Assembly: GCA_001801685.1 (NCBI GenBank) | Contig: MGYJ01000026.1 | Location: 1 to 64,000, forward strand | Direction: 5' to 3' | Source of the DNA: Gammaproteobacteria bacterium RIFCSPHIGHO2_12_FULL_63_22 | GTDB lineage: Bacteria > Pseudomonadota > Gammaproteobacteria > Xanthomonadales > Xanthomonadaceae | DNA: 64,000 nucleotides | Shown: in pieces, positions 35,893-44,453 of the stretch | Position numbering within the stretch: the stretch's first letter is position 1 | Layout of the letters: the number at the start of each line of letters is the position of its first letter | Program-made: the position numbers and the translations under genes | The notes under the pieces: generated by a model | Database searches by the model: none | Seen by the model: the letters and a program-made list of their open reading frames with translations, nothing else | Told to the model about the DNA's origin: nothing

Positions 35893-36684
35893 ATGGGCCG
35901 CGAGGGCTCCGTGCATATTACCATTGCGCACAAGGGCTCCAATGCCCGTGACGACAGGTCAGTCCCTCCCGTGTACGCCGCGAAGCTTGCCGATGTCTAC
36001 GATGCAATCCACTCGGGAAAGGATTACGCCCGCGAATCGGGCTATTTACTCGACGTCGTGAGGCGGCATCACCCGGCCGCGCGCACCTTGCTCGAAACGG
36101 CCTGCGGCACGGGCAGGTTCCTGGAGGCGCTCCAGGTGGAAATGGAGGTCACGGGCCTGGACCTCAGTCCGGGGATGCTCGCGCGTGCGGCCGAGCGGAT
36201 GCCTGGCGCGGCCCTGCATGTCGGTGACATGGCCGAATTTTCGCTGGGCAAGACTTTCGACGTCGTCTGTTGCCTGTTTCGTTCGATCGCCTACCTCAAG
36301 ACGAGCGACCGGCTGGCGGACGCCATCGGCACCATGGCACGGCATCTGGCTCCTGGCGGCATCGTCGTCATCGAGCCCTTTTTCACCCCGGAGAATTTCT
36401 GGGTAGGCCGGCTCACCTGCAACCACCACCGTGATGAATCGATGGACATCACCTGGATGTATGCCAGCGAAAGACCATCCAGCCGGCTGGGCCGATATCC
36501 CATCCATTTCCTGGTCGGCAGCGATGCAGGGGTCGATCATTTTGTCGAGGACCACGAGCTCGGCCTGTTCACGCCGCATGATTTCCAGGCCGCCTTCGAT
36601 CGGGCTGGCTTGAGTCTCGTCTACGATCCAGTCGGTCCCACCGGCATCGGCCTCTACATCGGCAAGCGCAGTTCGCGAGAGTGA
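35893..36684 (+). CDS. SAM-dependent methyltransferase, sugar N-methyltransferase-like (TylM1/DesVI type)
   Basis: This 263-residue class I methyltransferase reads VYDAIHSGKDYARE near the N terminus, then the SAM loop LETACGTGRFLEAL, LDLSPGMLARAAERMP, VVCCLFRSIAYL and GGIVVIEPFFTPENFW. The order and wording resemble TylM1/DesVI enzymes, which dimethylate the 3-amino group of dTDP-deoxyamino sugars; the substrate here is inferred. The start could be ATG 35893 or a GTG 18 bases later. It is divergent from uvrC and lies 10 bases before the methyltransferase-aminotransferase fusion, as first gene of the glycan island. Confidence 0.8.
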   Translation: MGREGSVHITIAHKGSNARDDRSVPPVYAAKLADVYDAIHSGKDYARESGYLLDVVRRHHPAARTLLETACGTGRFLEALQVEMEVTGLDLSPGMLARAAERMPGAALHVGDMAEFSLGKTFDVVCCLFRSIAYLKTSDRLADAIGTMARHLAPGGIVVIEPFFTPENFWVGRLTCNHHRDESMDITWMYASERPSSRLGRYPIHFLVGSDAGVDHFVEDHELGLFTPHDFQAAFDRAGLSLVYDPVGPTGIGLYIGKRSSRE

Positions 36685-36694
36685 GTGGGATACC

Positions 36695-38506
36695 ATGGCA
36701 ACCTCGCCTCCACGCAAGCCAACGATGACCGAACGCCCCGATGACGTCATCGTCGCCCATTACGACCAGGCACTGAGCCAGTTCGGCGATACGGCTCGCG
36801 GCGCGTTATGGCCGAACGAACAGGACCGGCAAACCCGATTCGACGTGATGCTCGACGTCCTTGCCGGCCATGTGGGCGAACCACTGGTTCTTTGCGACCT
36901 GGGCTGCGGCACCGGCGAGTTGCTGGCACGCATCCGGCAGCGCGGCATTTCAAACCTGACTTACATCGGCGTGGATCGTTCGGAAGCGGCCCTCGATTAC
37001 GCAAGGACGAAGTTTCCCGGCACGCGCTTCCTGCGCTTGGACGTGAATGCGCTCGATGCCGACCTCTCGCAAATCGACTGCGACTACCTGGTTGCAAACG
37101 GATTGTTCACCGTACGCCACGTGCTCGACGAACAACAGATGGCCGCCTTCGTCGATTCGACAATCCGTCGCGTGTGGCCACATGTGCGCGCAGGAATTGC
37201 GTTCAACCTCATGTCGGGCGTGGTGGACTGGCGTCGCGACGACCTGTTCCACGCGTCCATGGACGACATGGCCAGACTCCTGCATGAACTGGCCGGGCGC
37301 CGGGTGCGCATGCGCGCCGATTACGGCCTGTATGAGTTCACCTGCTATGCCTACAAGCCCATCGAGCCGCCCGCCACTGACGTTCGTTTCGATGCACCGG
37401 TGCGGGTATTGCGGCCCAGCCTGCCCACGGCCGACCGACTGCTGCCCTACCTGAGGCGGATCGACGGGGCGCGCATCTACTCGAACTTCGGTCCTTTGGT
37501 GCTCGAATTCGAATCTCGTGTCTGCACGTTGCTTGGGCTTCCAACCGGCGCAGTCGTGTCCGCCAGCACCGGCACGGCCGGGCTGGTAGGCGCCATCCTG
37601 GCGACGGCGGGACGCGCCACGACCACGCGCACGTTCGCCCTGATGCCGGCCTATACCTTTGTCGCGACGGCCGTGGCGGCCCGGGAGTGTGGCTACGAAC
37701 CCTATCTGGCGGACGTGGACGCCGAGACCTGGATGCTGGACCCGGATCGCCTGATGGATCATCCGTCGCTTGACCGCGTGGGCGTCGTCATCCCTGTCGC
37801 TGCGTTCGGAAAGAAGCTGGACCAAGCCGCCTGGCTGCGCTTTCGTGAGAAGACCGGCATCGCTGTCGTCATCGATGCGGCCGCGGGATTTGAATCCGTA
37901 AGCGAGAATCCACTGGCCTGCCTCGGGCCCATTCCCGTGGTCCTGAGCTTCCACGCAACCAAGAGCTTCGCGACTGGCGAAGGCGGCTGCGTGGCCAGCA
38001 CGGACATTGAGCTGGTGGCGCGAGCCTGCCAATGCCTCAATTACGGTTTCCGCTACTCACGCGACAGCCAGTCGGCGAGCATCAACGGCAAGATGAGCGA
38101 GTACCACGCCGCCGTCGGCCTGGCCGAATTCGATCAATGGGATGCAAAGCGCGATGCGTTTCAAAGCGTCGTGGACAACTACCTGAAGCGTGCTGCCGAG
38201 GCCGGAATCGGCACTCGACTGAAAACAGCGCCTGGCATTTCCTCGAGTTACATCCTCTTCCAATGCGATTCCATCGGACATGCCGAGCGCGTGCAGGCGG
38301 AATTGGCGGCAGACCATATCGAGTACCGGCTCTGGTACGGGATGGGCTTGCATCGGCAGACTCATTTCAGCGCGCTCCCGCGTGATCCCCTGCCCGTCAC
38401 CGGGCAGCTCACTCCTTGCGTGATCGGTTTGCCCATGGCAACCGACCTGGACGACGCCTCCATTGAGCGCATCGTGCGCGCGGTGGTGGCCGGAAGTCGG
38501 CAATGA
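36695..38506 (+). CDS. Fusion of SAM methyltransferase and DegT/DnrJ/EryC1/StrS aminotransferase
   Basis: This 603-residue two-domain protein has an N-terminal class I methyltransferase at about residues 12-222 (SAM loop LCDLGCGTGELLARI at 66-80) that ends RADYGLYEFTCYAYK. Residues about 235-600 are a PLP-dependent sugar aminotransferase of the DegT/StrS family, with VSASTGTAGL, VVIDAAAGF (Asp394) and the Schiff-base Lys423 in FHATKSFATGEGG. It would aminate a keto sugar and methylate the same or a related molecule. The next gene overlaps by 4 bases and carries a close copy of the methyltransferase half. I do not recall this fusion as a described enzyme. Confidence 0.85.
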   Translation: MATSPPRKPTMTERPDDVIVAHYDQALSQFGDTARGALWPNEQDRQTRFDVMLDVLAGHVGEPLVLCDLGCGTGELLARIRQRGISNLTYIGVDRSEAALDYARTKFPGTRFLRLDVNALDADLSQIDCDYLVANGLFTVRHVLDEQQMAAFVDSTIRRVWPHVRAGIAFNLMSGVVDWRRDDLFHASMDDMARLLHELAGRRVRMRADYGLYEFTCYAYKPIEPPATDVRFDAPVRVLRPSLPTADRLLPYLRRIDGARIYSNFGPLVLEFESRVCTLLGLPTGAVVSASTGTAGLVGAILATAGRATTTRTFALMPAYTFVATAVAARECGYEPYLADVDAETWMLDPDRLMDHPSLDRVGVVIPVAAFGKKLDQAAWLRFREKTGIAVVIDAAAGFESVSENPLACLGPIPVVLSFHATKSFATGEGGCVASTDIELVARACQCLNYGFRYSRDSQSASINGKMSEYHAAVGLAEFDQWDAKRDAFQSVVDNYLKRAAEAGIGTRLKTAPGISSSYILFQCDSIGHAERVQAELAADHIEYRLWYGMGLHRQTHFSALPRDPLPVTGQLTPCVIGLPMATDLDDASIERIVRAVVAGSRQ

Positions 38507-40509
38507 CCATGGGCGGTCCCGGACACGGCGCAGGTACCGATCGCGCCGACGACGTGATCCTCGCCCATGGCGACAAGGCGCTGCAGCTGCTCGGAGACAC
38601 TCCCGGGGGTGCCCACTGGCCGAACCAGGCCGATCGGCTTCGCCGCTTCGAAGTAATGCTGGACTTGCTTCCCGACCGCCTCCAACCCGTCGTACTCTGC
38701 GACCTGGGCTGCGGGACCGGTGAATTGCTCGCCCATATCCGGGCGCTTGGCTTGCACAACGTAAGCTATGTGGGCGTGGACCGCTCGGCCCTTGCCCTTG
38801 AGCACGCCGCACGCAAGTTTCCAGACGCCCGCTTCGTCCACCTCGACGTGAATGCAGGCGACGCGGACCTGAGGGCGATCGAGTGCGATTACCTGGTGGC
38901 CAACGGATTGTTCACGGCCAAGTGGGAGCTGTCGCACGAACAGATGCGTGGATTCATGGAGCAGACCCTGGCAAGGGTGTGGCCGATGGCAAGGCGTGGC
39001 ATGGCCTTCAACGTGATGTCCAAGGTGGTGGACTGGGAACGCGAGGATCTCTTCCACCTGGGCATGGATGAACTTGCGGCCTTCCTGCATCGGCTCGCCG
39101 GCCGCCGCCTGACCTTTCGCGCCGACTACGGATTGTACGAATACACCGCGTACGTGCTCAAGGATCCGGGCCCGCCGACGCCGGCAGAATCCAGCGCGCG
39201 CGATGAACTGACCGACCTGGTGCCTGCGGCCCTGCTGCAACAGGCCAGGCACAACCACGTCTATCAACAACAGTTCGTCAAGCAACTATTGCTGGACAAG
39301 CTTTCCGTGCCGGCGGCGTTCGATCGCTATACGCGCGCGCTCGACCTTCCGCACGCGCGCGCGCTGGTCACGAAGCAGCTGACGCCCCTGCGCGACGCCG
39401 TGCGTTCGCATGGCATCCACTTCAGGGAGCTGGCACGAGCCGGAGATGCGTTCGAAGTCCCACCGCCGCGTGTCATCGGACCTGGAAACCATCGCACGCT
39501 CCTGGGCCGCACCCGTTCCGAATTCATCGGCTGCCTGCCCGATGCGCGCGTGCGCAGCCGGTCTTCCGTCATCGAGCTCGATGAAATCATCGCGCTCGAT
39601 TACGAAGCGGGCGAACTTTCCAGCATCGACGATCGACTGAATCTGGATCCCGCGATTTTCCAGGTCGATGGCGAGACGGCGTTGATGCTTCCAGCCGGCG
39701 GCAACGAATTGGCGCTGGATGAAGTGTTTTCCCTGGTTGGCACGCACACTTGGGCGTTCGGCCACTGGCTTTGGGAGTACCTGCCCCGCTACGTCGCTGC
39801 GACGATGGCTGCCGACCTGCCAGCGATACCCGTACTGATCGACCAGGGCATGCCGGCGCAGCATCGCCAGGCGTTGGCAGCCTTGTTGCCGCCCGGTGCG
39901 AGCATCATCGAGTTGCCACCAGCGGGTCGTGCCCGCGTCGCTCGGCTCTGGTGCGCGCCGACACCGATGTACATGCCCCTGTTCGAGCACATGAACGAGC
40001 GCTTCCGGTGGGACCTGCTCGCCGCTGAACCGAGGCGATTTGCACGGGTCGTCGCTGAAATGAACCGTCGCCTGGGCCGGGAGGATGGCGCGCCCGGTGT
40101 TCGACGCATCTACCTCGCCCGGCGAGAAAACCGGCATCGAAAGCTGGTCAATCACGCGCAGATCGAGGCACTCGCGACCCGTCACGGATTCGATGTGGTG
40201 TATCCGGAAGACATGGACTTCGCCGGGCAGGTTCGAATGGCACGCGACGCCGAGTGGATCGTCGGACCGGAGGGTTCGGCAATGTTCCTCGCATTCTTCG
40301 CGGCCGCCGGAACGCGATTGTGCATCCTCAATCACCCCTACACCTTGGGGCTGCCCGTGTTGACTGGCCTGCTTGAGGAAATCGGCATCGACGTCACCGT
40401 AATGACCGGCCCAGCGGCATCGAGCAATGCTGAACTTCCGCATTTCATAGACTACCGGATCGACCCGGAAGGGTTCGAAGCGTTCCTCCTGGCAGTGCTT
40501 GCACGGTGA
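38503..40509 (+). CDS. Fusion of SAM methyltransferase and GT61-family glycosyltransferase
   Basis: This 668-residue protein has an N-terminal methyltransferase (about residues 14-222, SAM loop LCDLGCGTGELLAHI). It is a clear paralogue of the N-terminal half of the preceding protein. A helical linker (about 230-315) joins it to a C-terminal glycosyltransferase of the GT61/DUF563 type (about 325-660), with FGHWLWEYLPRY, RIYLARREN, RKLVNHAQIEAL, VYPEDMDF and IVGPEGSAMF. No signal peptide or membrane segment is seen, so it acts in the cytosol. It overlaps both neighbours by 4 bases. Donor and acceptor are unknown. Confidence 0.85.
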   Translation: MTMGGPGHGAGTDRADDVILAHGDKALQLLGDTPGGAHWPNQADRLRRFEVMLDLLPDRLQPVVLCDLGCGTGELLAHIRALGLHNVSYVGVDRSALALEHAARKFPDARFVHLDVNAGDADLRAIECDYLVANGLFTAKWELSHEQMRGFMEQTLARVWPMARRGMAFNVMSKVVDWEREDLFHLGMDELAAFLHRLAGRRLTFRADYGLYEYTAYVLKDPGPPTPAESSARDELTDLVPAALLQQARHNHVYQQQFVKQLLLDKLSVPAAFDRYTRALDLPHARALVTKQLTPLRDAVRSHGIHFRELARAGDAFEVPPPRVIGPGNHRTLLGRTRSEFIGCLPDARVRSRSSVIELDEIIALDYEAGELSSIDDRLNLDPAIFQVDGETALMLPAGGNELALDEVFSLVGTHTWAFGHWLWEYLPRYVAATMAADLPAIPVLIDQGMPAQHRQALAALLPPGASIIELPPAGRARVARLWCAPTPMYMPLFEHMNERFRWDLLAAEPRRFARVVAEMNRRLGREDGAPGVRRIYLARRENRHRKLVNHAQIEALATRHGFDVVYPEDMDFAGQVRMARDAEWIVGPEGSAMFLAFFAAAGTRLCILNHPYTLGLPVLTGLLEEIGIDVTVMTGPAASSNAELPHFIDYRIDPEGFEAFLLAVLAR

Positions 40510-41402
40510 GGGTCGCGGCGCATCTTGGCGTCAAGGACGAGGCCAGCCTGCTGGCACGGGCAATCGACCATCTCTATTCGATCGGCGTGGACCAGGTCAT
40601 CGCTACGGACATGGGCTCGACCGATGGTTCGCTGGAAATCTTGCGGCGATACCGCGACAAAGGGCCGCTGCAACTGGTGGAACTCGACGACCGCGCGCCA
40701 GACATGCTGCACGAATGGTCGCCTCGCGTTACTGCCCTGGTGAAGGCGGCCAACGTCGACTGGGCTATTTTTCTGGACGCCGACGAGTTCCCGTTGCCAG
40801 CGACGGGATCGATCAAGGATTGCCGTGCGCTGGCTACTGCGGACGTACTGTTGATCGATCGTTTCAACGTGCCGCTGTCACCAGCAGGAATTTTGTTTCC
40901 CGACGCCGTGGGACCTGGTGCCCATGCCAACATCTCGCTCATCGTCGAGCCGATCGCGGATTTCCATGATCACCTGCTGGCAAACCCGGACACGCCGTGG
41001 ATTCGCGGGGTGCCAATGCCGAAGGCATTGGCGAGGCCCGGCGCCATGGCAAGCGTGACTGTCGGCGGACATGACGTCGTTGCCATGGAGGGAGTGTCCC
41101 TGCGCAAGGTTCGCCCCGCCGACCTCGTGATCGCCCACCTTCCATTCACCGACAGGTCGCGCTTCGTATCCAAGGTCGAAAACGTGACATCCACCATTCG
41201 CGCCAACCCGAGCTTCTTCCAGGGTCGAATCGCCTGGCACTGGCGCCGATGGCTGGATCAACACCGCGATGGGACGATCGATGCCGAATTCGATCGCCAG
41301 GCGTTTTCGCCAGGGGCGCTGGAGGACTTGAGGGCGCAAGGCGTCATCATCGATGCCGCATCATGGTTTGCCCGGCAAGCAGGCGTGGACCGTCCCGCAT
41401 GA
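40506..41402 (+). CDS. Glycosyltransferase family 2-like protein
   Basis: This 298-residue protein with a GT-A-like start has VKDEASLLARAIDHLYSIGVD, TDMGSTDGS and the metal-binding DAD in AIFLDADEFPLP. The late AHLPFTDRSRFVSKVEN resembles the Glyco_tranf_2_4 subgroup. It is cytosolic and is probably a glycosyltransferase of the island's glycan. The start codon is GTG, overlapping the preceding stop by 4 bases, and the WbqC gene overlaps its end in the same way. Confidence 0.8.
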   Translation: MRVAAHLGVKDEASLLARAIDHLYSIGVDQVIATDMGSTDGSLEILRRYRDKGPLQLVELDDRAPDMLHEWSPRVTALVKAANVDWAIFLDADEFPLPATGSIKDCRALATADVLLIDRFNVPLSPAGILFPDAVGPGAHANISLIVEPIADFHDHLLANPDTPWIRGVPMPKALARPGAMASVTVGGHDVVAMEGVSLRKVRPADLVIAHLPFTDRSRFVSKVENVTSTIRANPSFFQGRIAWHWRRWLDQHRDGTIDAEFDRQAFSPGALEDLRAQGVIIDAASWFARQAGVDRPA

Positions 41403-42121
41403 GCACGCATTCGAGCCCGACCGCACACGCGCATCGGGTGGCGATAATGCAGCCCTATTTCTTTCCACATGGTGGATATTTCCGCCTGTTCTCCCAGGTT
41501 GATGAATTCGTCTTGCTCGACTGCGTGCAATTCCCCCGCACGGGTCGCGTCCACCGAAGCGAAGTGGCGAGACGCGGTCGGCCATCGGACTGGCTGACTT
41601 TGCCGCTGGCCAGGCAGCCGCGCGAAACGATCATTGCCGATCTCGCCTTTGCCGATGGCGCGCGCCGGGAATTCGACGACCGTCTTGCCGCCCAGCCCTG
41701 GATTCGCACGGCGCGGGGTCCCGCAGCGGACCAACTACGTGAGTACTTGCACGGCCCGATGGACTCGGTCGTGGACTTCCTGCAACGCGGACTTGAACTC
41801 GTGCTGGCGCAACTGGGCCTGCACACGCCCATCAGCCGAAGTTCGGCCCTCGACCTGCCGCCCGAACTGCGTGCGCAAGATCGTATCCTCGCGATAGCAG
41901 GTGCACGCGGGGCCCGTTCCTATTTGAACGCGCCCGGCGGACGGGCCTTGTACGACCCGGCTGCTTTCGAAGCCGCGGGAATTCAACTTCGATTCCTGGA
42001 AGACTATCGAGGCGAATTCACGCATCTCCTGCCCGCGCTGATGCAGCGTGAACCCATGGACATCGCACGCGACATACTCGATCTGTCTGCTCCCGCGCCG
42101 CTCGTTGGTCCGCTGCAATGA
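41399..42121 (+). CDS. WbqC family protein
   Basis: This 240-residue protein carries the WbqC signature: VAIMQPYFFPHGGYFRLFSQVD, VLLDCVQFPRTGRVHRSEV and WLTLPLAR at the N-terminal half, then SYLNAPGGRALYDPAAFEAAGI and FLEDYRG. WbqC proteins occur in O-antigen and flagellin-glycan gene clusters; the reaction is not established to my knowledge. Its start overlaps the GT2-like gene and its stop overlaps the GT61 gene, each by 4 bases, so it belongs to the same translated unit. Confidence 0.88.
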   Translation: MSTHSSPTAHAHRVAIMQPYFFPHGGYFRLFSQVDEFVLLDCVQFPRTGRVHRSEVARRGRPSDWLTLPLARQPRETIIADLAFADGARREFDDRLAAQPWIRTARGPAADQLREYLHGPMDSVVDFLQRGLELVLAQLGLHTPISRSSALDLPPELRAQDRILAIAGARGARSYLNAPGGRALYDPAAFEAAGIQLRFLEDYRGEFTHLLPALMQREPMDIARDILDLSAPAPLVGPLQ

Positions 42122-43431
42122 CCGAGGCGGAGCTCATTGCCCTGCACGAGGCGGAAATTCCGATTTGGGGGCACTTGCCGGCTGCCATGCGCTTCAAGCA
42201 GGCGGCGGTCCGGATGCTTGGGGTCGGCGCCGCGTTCGATCTGGTGCGCGGGCACGTGTCGGTTCCGTCGCTCGACCGCCTGCAGCCGCGACCCATCGTC
42301 AGCCTCCGGGAAGCCGCGCTGGATCGAGCCCTTTTTTTCAACGAGTTGTGGCAAGGCGGCAATCAATTCGAGCGCGCGGAACTGCGCGTCATCGGAAATG
42401 GCAACCATGGCCCCCTGCCGGGATGGGATCGTTCGGCCTTCCTTGCCTGCCTGCCCAACGCGACCGTGCGCTCGCGCTCGGCGCTGGTGTTTTCCGGCAC
42501 TGATGCGTTGATGGATTTCGAGGGTGACGAATATTCCCGCGTCACGGACATCCCGCAGTTCGACCCGAGCATCCTGCACCGCGACGGCGATGTTGCTTGG
42601 ACGATGGAATCGAACGCACCTGCGCTGGAAATCGACGAGGCCTTCGTGCTGTTCGGACGCAACGCGGTGGACTTCGGCCACTGGATCACCGAGTACCTGC
42701 CACGCTACGTACTGGCGCGCATGGCGGGCCTGCCCGACCAAGTTCCGGTCCTGATCGACCCGGGAGTGCCTGCGACCGTGCGCGACGCGCTTGCCAGCTA
42801 CCTGCCCGAAGCAAGCCGGCTCGTGATTGCGCCGCACTTGGCCGAAGTTCGCGTGGGACGGCTTTGGTGCGCGTCAAATCCGATCTTCTCGGCGTTCTAT
42901 CCGTCAGATTGGCCGCTTGAGCTCTGGTCGCACCTGGGCAGCGCGCCCGCACCATTGGCCCGCATCATTCGGGAGTGGCTGCGCATCGCCGGACCGGGAT
43001 TGCTCGAACCAACGGGTGACGATCGGATTTTCCTAGCGCGAAAACCGGCGACTCGGAACAAGCGCCTGCTCAACCATGTCGAGATCGAAGCGCTGGCAAT
43101 CGAGCGCGGATTCCGCATCGTCTATCCGGAAGACCTGAGCCTGCACGAGCAGATGCGGCTGGTGGCGAATTCACGACACATCATTGCGCCGGAAGGATCC
43201 AACGGGCTTCTTTCGTGGTTTGCGCAGCCCGGTTGCAAGGTCTGCCTGCTAAGCCCGCCGTACACGTTGCCGCTGGTTGACCTCAATGCCATCTTGCTCG
43301 AGCTCGGAATCAGCCTGACGGTATTGACCGGCCCGGACCTGCCAACGGCCTCGGAAGACTACTGCGGCTTCTGGAATGACTACCGTATCTCACCGAAGGT
43401 GTTCTCGGAGTTCCTCGACGGCTGGCTCTAG
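42118..43431 (+). CDS. GT61-family glycosyltransferase
   Basis: This 437-residue protein has a catalytic domain at about residues 95-430 that resembles the C-terminal domain of the fusion at 38503-40509: FGHWITEYLPRY, PVLIDPGVPA, RIFLARKPATR, LLNHVEIEALA, VYPEDLSLHEQM, IIAPEGSNGLL and LLSPPYTLPL. The N-terminal 90 residues replace the methyltransferase. It is the last plus-strand gene of the island, and its TAG stop shares CTAG with the stop of the convergent FemAB-like gene. Donor and acceptor are unknown. Confidence 0.86.
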   Translation: MTEAELIALHEAEIPIWGHLPAAMRFKQAAVRMLGVGAAFDLVRGHVSVPSLDRLQPRPIVSLREAALDRALFFNELWQGGNQFERAELRVIGNGNHGPLPGWDRSAFLACLPNATVRSRSALVFSGTDALMDFEGDEYSRVTDIPQFDPSILHRDGDVAWTMESNAPALEIDEAFVLFGRNAVDFGHWITEYLPRYVLARMAGLPDQVPVLIDPGVPATVRDALASYLPEASRLVIAPHLAEVRVGRLWCASNPIFSAFYPSDWPLELWSHLGSAPAPLARIIREWLRIAGPGLLEPTGDDRIFLARKPATRNKRLLNHVEIEALAIERGFRIVYPEDLSLHEQMRLVANSRHIIAPEGSNGLLSWFAQPGCKVCLLSPPYTLPLVDLNAILLELGISLTVLTGPDLPTASEDYCGFWNDYRISPKVFSEFLDGWL

Positions 43432-44453
43432 GGACGACCCGGACGACGCCATGGAGGGAAATATCCCGTCTCGTCCGCCGTTACGCCCACGGCTGCGCAC
43501 GCCAAGACGAATCGATCTCGATCGAAGACCTGCTTCAGCGCCAAGGTGGGAGAGCGCGCCGCACCCAGTCGGTCCTTGAAGTCCGACAGGCCATCGCCGG
43601 GTGAAATTCCGCCACCCAGGTTCAATACCTGCACGCCCAGCTCTCGCAAGCGCAGCATGCCCAGCCAATACAGGCCACGGGAATGTCGACGACCGGCCGG
43701 CGTTGCGGCGTTGAGGAAACTGTCGGCCGTCGTGCCGGCGTGCAGGAAAAGCGTGACCGCCTCGATCTCGCCCTGCGCGTTGCGCGCCCCGACCATCAGG
43801 CTGCCGGGAGCCGATGCAATCAGCGCAAGCGGCGAGTCGCCGTAGTGATAAATGGATGCAATTGCCTGGCGTTCGAGAAACTCGGCGTAGATGCGATTGA
43901 AATGCCCCAGCAGGACCCGCTGGTCCCATTCCACGTGCGCTTCCTCGCGCAACCATTTGCGAAGCAGTTGGCGATGCTTGGACGACATGCCCGCCAGAAG
44001 CGTGTCGGGATCCGGTCGCAGGTCCCAGCACCAGCAGTCCTGCGCAGGCTGCAGGAAGTCCGAAAGTTCAGGAATCAATTTCCGCCATCGTTCGGGTGAC
44101 AGAAATGGCGAAAGTTGCACGTATGCGGAAATGGCGCCGCGGCGCAGCCAGTCACGCGTCCACGCTTCGCCAAGCCCGGGCACGTCGCCCTCGATCGAGA
44201 AACCGGCGAATCCCAAGGGCGTGGCGATGTCGAAGCCGCCGGGTGCTTCACGCAGGGAAACGATGCAGGCCGCGCGGCCCGATTCGCCCGCGTAAGACCA
44301 CAGGGAAGTTGTCAGCCCGGTGACCGCCGTGGCCGCCAGTGCATATTCCGGACGATGGCCGAAATCATGTGGCAGGCCTTCGATCGCGCTCAGCCAGACT
44401 CCGGCATCCGATGCCGGAATGAGCCGGCAACGGCCCTCGTCGAGGTGGGTCAT
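43428..44453 (-). CDS. FemAB/GNAT-like acyltransferase
   Basis: This 341-residue protein resembles the FemAB-like GNAT branch found in polysaccharide loci (BioF2/acetyltransf_6 type). It has [20 protein letters not shown] near residue 155, [12 protein letters not shown], then [20 protein letters not shown] and [19 protein letters not shown] followed by DFKDRLGA. Such proteins transfer acyl or aminoacyl groups to sugars or peptides; the acceptor here is unknown. It overlaps kdsB by 4 bases, so it belongs to the LPS operon, while its stop meets the glycan island. It could modify the island's sugar or the LPS core. Confidence 0.75.

Follow-up and report, generated by a model that had tools for sequence, protein, structure and literature searches.

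Two tandem fusions of one methyltransferase family, to a DegT aminotransferase and to a GT61 glycosyltransferase, in a putative surface-glycan operon of a gammaproteobacterium

We examined two adjacent genes in a 64,000-nucleotide stretch of contig MGYJ01000026.1 from Gammaproteobacteria bacterium RIFCSPHIGHO2_12_FULL_63_22 (family Xanthomonadaceae), hereafter called the window. Both encode proteins that begin with a domain of the same S-adenosylmethionine (SAM)-dependent methyltransferase (MT) family: in protein A (open reading frame (ORF) 36695-38506, 603 amino acids) the MT is joined to a DegT aminotransferase, and in protein B (ORF 38503-40509, 668 amino acids) to a GT61 glycosyltransferase. 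Each frame is open over its full span, and both fusions are real. We propose that they belong to a surface-glycan operon whose products make a methylated 4-amino-4,6-dideoxyhexose and add it to the glycan, with A making and methylating the sugar, B transferring it, and the second MT also active; we put the probability of this reading at roughly 0.5. The domains are as follows.

36695-37372, + strand: class I SAM methyltransferase (MT) domain, N-terminal in protein A (Pfam, similarity to B, AlphaFold model)
37373-38506, + strand: DegT/DnrJ/EryC1/StrS aminotransferase domain, C-terminal in protein A (Pfam, NCBIfam, PDB)
38503-39180, + strand: MT domain, N-terminal in protein B (Pfam, alignment to A, conserved columns)
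39181-40509, + strand: GT61 glycosyltransferase part, C-terminal in protein B (Pfam Glyco_transf_61, 4.4e-20)

All Pfam domain calls were above the curated cut-offs. Protein A matched Methyltransf_31 at residues 65-141 and DegT_DnrJ_EryC1 (PF01041) at residues 252-597 (7.2e-49; 167.4 bits against a cut-off of 19.8; profile positions 10-359 of 360), whereas protein B matched Methyltransf_12 at residues 67-152 and Glyco_transf_61 (PF04577) at residues 419-607 (72.8 bits against a cut-off of 27), which bears out the partners that the initial annotation had assigned to each protein. The N-terminal parts of A and B aligned with 132 identities over 226 columns (58.4%) and a score of 690, whereas 200 shuffles averaged 33 and never exceeded 56; the C-terminal parts scored 34, within the shuffle level. 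The blocks GDT..G..WPN, NG.FT, AFN.MS, VDW.R.DLFH and R.DYGLYE are family-specific and common to both MTs, so that their likeness goes beyond the generic SAM fold. The same annotation had called the tandem domains near-identical: two MT fusions are indeed there, with all four stretches it quoted, but the likeness amounts to 58% identity in protein and 63% in codon-aligned DNA. The copies are unlikely to be an assembly artefact, since about 42% of their residues differ and each has its own partner. A whole-genome search with A (4.26 Mb, 99 contigs) gave four matches, namely A, B and two confined to the DegT part, and hence found no third MT copy in the genome.

An alignment scan of 84,980 species genomes yielded 338 relatives of the MT. 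Counts over 80 given below refer to the best 80 of these 338, whose loci (L040-L119) are stretches of up to 8 kb on each side of the MT, 47 of them with full flanks. A single-sequence scan of the same genome contigs returned 27 pattern matches and zero relatives. The MT is a separate, unfused gene in most relatives. The MT-DegT fusion recurred in 2 of the 80 loci (L040 and L041) and in one genome of the window's own family (G101), giving three further cases; that of G101 came from a separate search and is missing from the order-sample matches, presumably because the genome was not drawn. No MT-GT61 fusion was found in the 80 loci, where long C-terminal tails on the MT occurred only in L040 and L041 (a "tail" in L043 was read as a split hit), nor among the matches at E <= 1e-20 in sampled genomes of the order (7 of 398 genomes with a match), class (13 of 369) and phylum (27 of 398). 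These samples overlap and were drawn from larger groups, and several of the matches are partial (e.g., G678 and G823); the longest other open frame among them was 314 amino acids. In the same genus, none of the eight listed genomes had a match at E <= 1e-20. The initial annotation had asked whether both architectures were already characterised, and no publication on either was found among the literature matches listed. As far as the searches went, the combined architecture of A and B is new, although viosamine-type surface-glycan clusters are a known kind of system and the present one is ordinary in kind.

We then considered the genomic setting of the MT family. The best 80 relatives span ten phyla (Pseudomonadota 25, Bacteroidota 24, Planctomycetota 12, Bacillota 9, Acidobacteriota 3, Campylobacterota 2, Verrucomicrobiota 2, and one each from Cyanobacteriota, Actinomycetota and Fidelibacterota), and many are metagenome bins. 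Homologues of four genes were common near the MT: DegT in 69 of the 80 loci (45 of the 47 with full flanks), WbqC in 60 (36), a sugar acetyltransferase of the left-handed beta-helix (LbH) type in 56 (35), and a glycosidase-like protein in 52 (33). DegT lay within 3 kb of the MT in 60 of the 69 DegT-bearing loci, WbqC was the first labelled ORF upstream, at most 600 bp away, in 39 of the 80, and the acetyltransferase was the nearest labelled ORF downstream in 50. All four partners occurred together in 42 loci from seven phyla, and since the loci were picked by the MT alone, this neighbourhood was not built in. Among the partners, one acetyltransferase example passed the NeuD/PglB/VioB model (177.9 bits; cut-off 160.8) and another fell short (151.6). 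The glycosidase-like protein matched a beta-1,2-mannobiose phosphorylase model, presumably of family GH130, only weakly (35.5 bits against 450), and of two examples one exceeded the cut-off of Pfam Glyco_hydro_32N. Radical SAM homologues adjoin the MT in 5 of the 80 loci. Plasmid-borne MTs of Acuticoccus, Azospirillum, Bernardetia and Rhizobium likewise have WbqC, acetyltransferase and DegT-type genes nearby; in Acuticoccus, DegT, GT61, GT2-like, WbqC and MT, the domain types of the five-gene operon described below, are separate genes in one cluster. The idea that the MT and its partners serve one pathway gained support in this sense: a common glycan setting is indicated by the Acuticoccus cluster and by the DegT homologues within 8 kb in almost all full-flank stretches. 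Action of the MT at two steps, which the initial annotation also suggested, is possible.

The five-gene cassette of DegT, WbqC, MT, acetyltransferase and glycosidase-like protein, found from Bacteroidota to Bacillota, is widespread and uncharacterised, and is a more general lead than the fusions themselves. Judging by titles and abstract openings, none of the literature matches for WbqC evidently dealt with its function; a single biochemical experiment on so widespread a cassette could therefore help to annotate many genomes. The fusions in turn name the partners: they link an otherwise anonymous MT family with amino-sugar synthesis by DegT and with transfer by GT61, so that a guess at the substrate becomes testable.

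Both MT domains are class I SAM-dependent methyltransferases, B by Pfam and A also by its AlphaFold model. The model of A's MT (mean predicted local distance difference test score (pLDDT) 93.5) matched known methyltransferases at about E = 1e-8 and 750 PDB chains at E <= 0.001, and the best 50 of these 750 were mostly named methyltransferases with mixed substrates. In a PDB sequence search, the MT profile placed 3bxo, an N,N-dimethyltransferase that we take to be DesVI, first (1.1e-07), with a match covering residues 37-103 of 205. Of the 50 columns with a conservation of at least 90% across 68 rows (A and B included), A keeps 48 and B all 50, and both MTs are therefore expected to be active. 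Fused paralogues can turn into scaffolds, and one of the two domains might in principle be a structural leftover beside a catalytic copy, but the retention of these columns in both makes this very improbable. For the DegT part, the best NCBIfam match was the DesI model PLP_DesI (TIGR04427), at 149.2 bits against an equivalog cut-off of 650. Its first PDB match was 3ju7 (putative aminotransferase, 1.1e-46), followed by 2po3 (5.5e-38), which is named a 4-dehydrase in the search output and is presumably DesI; a lysine seen by eye in SFHATKSFATGEGG of protein A may be the pyridoxal phosphate-binding lysine of DegT enzymes. A PDB sequence search with the GT61 part of B gave nothing useful.

In the proposed pathway, RmlA and RmlB would supply deoxythymidine diphosphate (dTDP)-4-keto-6-deoxyglucose, which the DegT domain of A would transaminate at C4 in the manner of DesI or VioA. 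The MT of A would methylate the resulting amino sugar, most likely at a ring hydroxyl, and the GT61 part of B would pass the methylated sugar to a glycan acceptor. As a second active copy, the MT of B might complete methylation at the hand-over to the glycosyltransferase or methylate the sugar once attached. Fusion would couple enzymes that elsewhere come from neighbouring genes, and the arrangement hints that the making, methylating and attaching of one rare sugar are coupled. The precursor genes are present: RmlB (56% identity) and RmlA (61%) lie side by side on another contig of the same genome (C5), both above the NCBIfam equivalog cut-offs, as found with queries from L042 that themselves pass the RmlA and dTDP-glucose 4,6-dehydratase cut-offs.

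Several points weigh against this reading. The SAM fold does not tell the substrate, as the best sequence match is partial and the fold matches are mixed, and the DegT part falls far below the DesI equivalog cut-off. Glycan clusters often contain DegT-type enzymes, and a DegT gene nearby is therefore weak evidence alone. RmlA homologues (E <= 1e-103) occur in only 12 of the 80 loci and RmlB homologues (E <= 1e-115) in 6, both including L042; moreover, dTDP-rhamnose would also explain the two genes, and thus their presence permits the proposal without proving it. For a VioB-type acetyltransferase, the one query used found no close relative in the genome to which the window belongs, the best match being 32% over 77 residues and all matches being short hexapeptide stretches (31-32%), which argues that this is not the textbook viosamine pathway. 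Finally, the MT-GT61 fusion has been seen once, only here.

The site of methylation divides the readings. We prefer O-methylation because most of the 80 loci carry an acetyltransferase homologue, which is expected to block the amine. Alternatively, the MT could be an N-methyltransferase like DesVI or TylM1 that acts on the new 4-amino group, with A making a monomethylamino or dimethylamino sugar and B completing it before transfer. The first place of 3bxo aligns with this, as do several dTDP-3-amino-sugar N,N-dimethyltransferase entries among the 53 listed, but the PDB match is confined to the SAM-motif region and the other listed entries have other substrates. Direct fusion of the amine maker to the MT would suit N-methylation, and the amine-blocking acetyltransferase was neither seen near the MT in L040 or L042 nor closely matched in the window's own genome (one query); on the other hand, the MT stands alongside an acetyltransferase homologue in 56 of the 80 loci, where the amine is expected to be occupied. 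N-methylation is the main rival, though less likely. A broader proposal, which we regard as rather unlikely, is a two-protein relay: the maker and the attacher of the amino sugar would carry cognate MTs for two obligatory methylations (or a methylation check), and the cassette, with its MT in ten phyla and its full set in seven, would make undescribed methylated amino sugars.

The MT might also act on a target other than the amino sugar itself, such as an amino-acid substituent from WbqC or FemAB-like proteins, or it might cap the end of the glycan and so terminate the chain. The frequent position of WbqC directly upstream of the MT (39 of 80) fits this, and several class I aminoacyl-tRNA synthetases and nicotinate nucleotide adenylyltransferases are among the PDB matches of the WbqC model (pLDDT 91.5), although no match was significant. 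In the WbqC family, a conserved PY.GY could occupy the place of the HIGH motif of HUP enzymes, and this weak HUP-like hint could serve as a lead only. Against such a target, no WbqC fold match reached E <= 0.001 (best 0.042), template modelling (TM) scores were at most 0.40 in the best 50, and a PDB profile search with WbqC found nothing; a target of this kind is unlikely.

The proposed sugar has relatives in known systems. The Pseudomonas syringae viosamine island comprises vioA, vioM, vioT, vioS, vioB, vioR and acp, and deletion of vioM gave a modified viosamine without its methyl group (PMC3927599), which is an experimental precedent for the proposed methylation. Like the window, the island combines an aminotransferase, a methyltransferase and a transferase for one methylated 4-amino-4,6-dideoxy sugar of a surface glycan; unlike in the window, vioA, vioM, vioT and vioB are described there as separate genes (PMC3927599), and VioM is compared with the present MT by its described role. 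The window, for its part, has no close VioB-type match in its genome and has WbqC, GT61 and a doubled MT. In Mimivirus, the class I methyltransferase R132, modelled by its authors on MycE, is proposed to methylate N-acetylviosamine, and L142 joins a viosamine acetyltransferase to a putative glycosyltransferase, the two being separate in some relatives (PMC10117803). These viral proteins differ from A and B in their fusion partners and in using uridine diphosphate (UDP) sugars, and R132 is again compared by its described role. The cassette shares homologues of MT, DegT and WbqC with the window; the window differs in lacking a close acetyltransferase match and, by a weak test, any match to the glycosidase-like protein in its genome, in having GT61 and GT2 genes, and in having the MT fused twice.

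The initial annotation had also suggested duplication followed by partner swapping, which was not supported as stated. The MT of A is 68% identical to that of the L040 fusion and 61% to that of B over the tree columns (41 rows of 91 in the MT tree; 40 of 60 in the DegT tree). In the MT tree, A was placed beside L040 (95/78), with L041 joining next (94/89), and B paired with the unfused MT of L042 (87/69), all below the program's strong level. Because the MT of A resembles that of another MT-DegT fusion more than it resembles the MT of B, a recent in-place tandem duplication is not favoured. Forcing the two MTs together was 11.4 log-likelihood units worse (approximately unbiased (AU) test, p = 0.136); the pair is not rejected, and both an old duplication and a separate capture are possible. 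The fused DegT domains of A, L040, L041 and G101 formed one group with weak support (64/72), and the two trees disagree on the nearest neighbour of A (L040 in the MT tree, L041 in the DegT tree at 97/84). The simplest reading of these trees is a single MT-DegT fusion event, while in the lineage of the window GT61 was probably joined to a second MT that either stems from an older duplication or was captured separately. The closest unfused relative of B's MT is in L042, a contig that was binned as Cyanobium and also holds RmlA, RmlB and RmlC; this is due either to horizontal transfer or to mis-binning.

The genes surrounding A and B are as follows.

35959-36684 (span searched, not start codon), + strand: a different class I methyltransferase upstream of A (Pfam Methyltransf_25, 1.4e-16)
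40506-41402, + strand: GT2/GT92-like glycosyltransferase, GTG start (Pfam Glyco_tranf_2_4, 5.2e-11)
41399-42121, + strand: WbqC-family protein (Pfam WbqC, 1.8e-31)
42118-43431, + strand: second GT61 glycosyltransferase, unfused (Pfam, 8e-20)
43428-44453, - strand: FemAB/GNAT-like protein, convergent with the operon (NCBIfam FemAB weak, 17.3 bits against 260)

Four junctions in a row overlap by 4 bases (A/B ATGA, B/GT2-like GTGA, GT2-like/WbqC ATGA, WbqC/second GT61 ATGA), so that the run from A through B, the GT2-like gene and WbqC to the second GT61 has the look of a single operon. The unfused GT61 shares 39.8% identity over 407 columns with its counterpart in B. A GPHGA-type motif near the C-terminus is typical of GT61; B reads GPEGS and the other GT61 type in L040 GPHGA. 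GPEGS marks a subgroup of B and L042 13460-15004, and the other type in L040 and L042 has GPHGA or GPHGS.

The outer flanks of the operon are UvrC on one side and KdsB and MsbA on the other; an lpxK label was given by eye, and NCBIfam gave no match for it at E <= 1e-60. The names UvrC, KdsB, MsbA, RmlA, RmlB, RmlC, kynureninase and 3-hydroxyanthranilate dioxygenase were checked against NCBIfam. L040 likewise has UvrC upstream (identical to the window's in 505 of 637 columns) and homologues of GT61, GT2, WbqC and FemAB downstream. The gene following its MT-DegT fusion is a different GT61 without an MT, 43.6% identical over 250 columns to one in L042 and similar to B only locally; its relative of the second GT61 lies on the opposite strand (55% identity over 436 columns). 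The MT-DegT cassette of G101 lies between kynureninase and 3-hydroxyanthranilate 3,4-dioxygenase (L039 1241-2515; L006 2367-2900), and holds a B12-binding radical SAM gene.

A horizontal island was rejected on composition: the guanine plus cytosine (GC) fraction was 0.623-0.637 in the operon genes and the upstream methyltransferase versus 0.646-0.655 in uvrC, kdsB and msbA, with no sharp break. Phage origin was rejected as well, as the MT of A had no match in the phage collection and only a weak, generic PHROG match. The FemAB/GNAT-like gene is a probable associate of the operon, with homologues in 10 of the 80 MT loci, including L040 (9e-95). The upstream methyltransferase scored 72 bits on a daptide RiPP (ribosomally synthesized and post-translationally modified peptide) methyltransferase model, below the cut-off of 175 and thus a non-member, and its homologues occur in 4 of the 80 MT loci.

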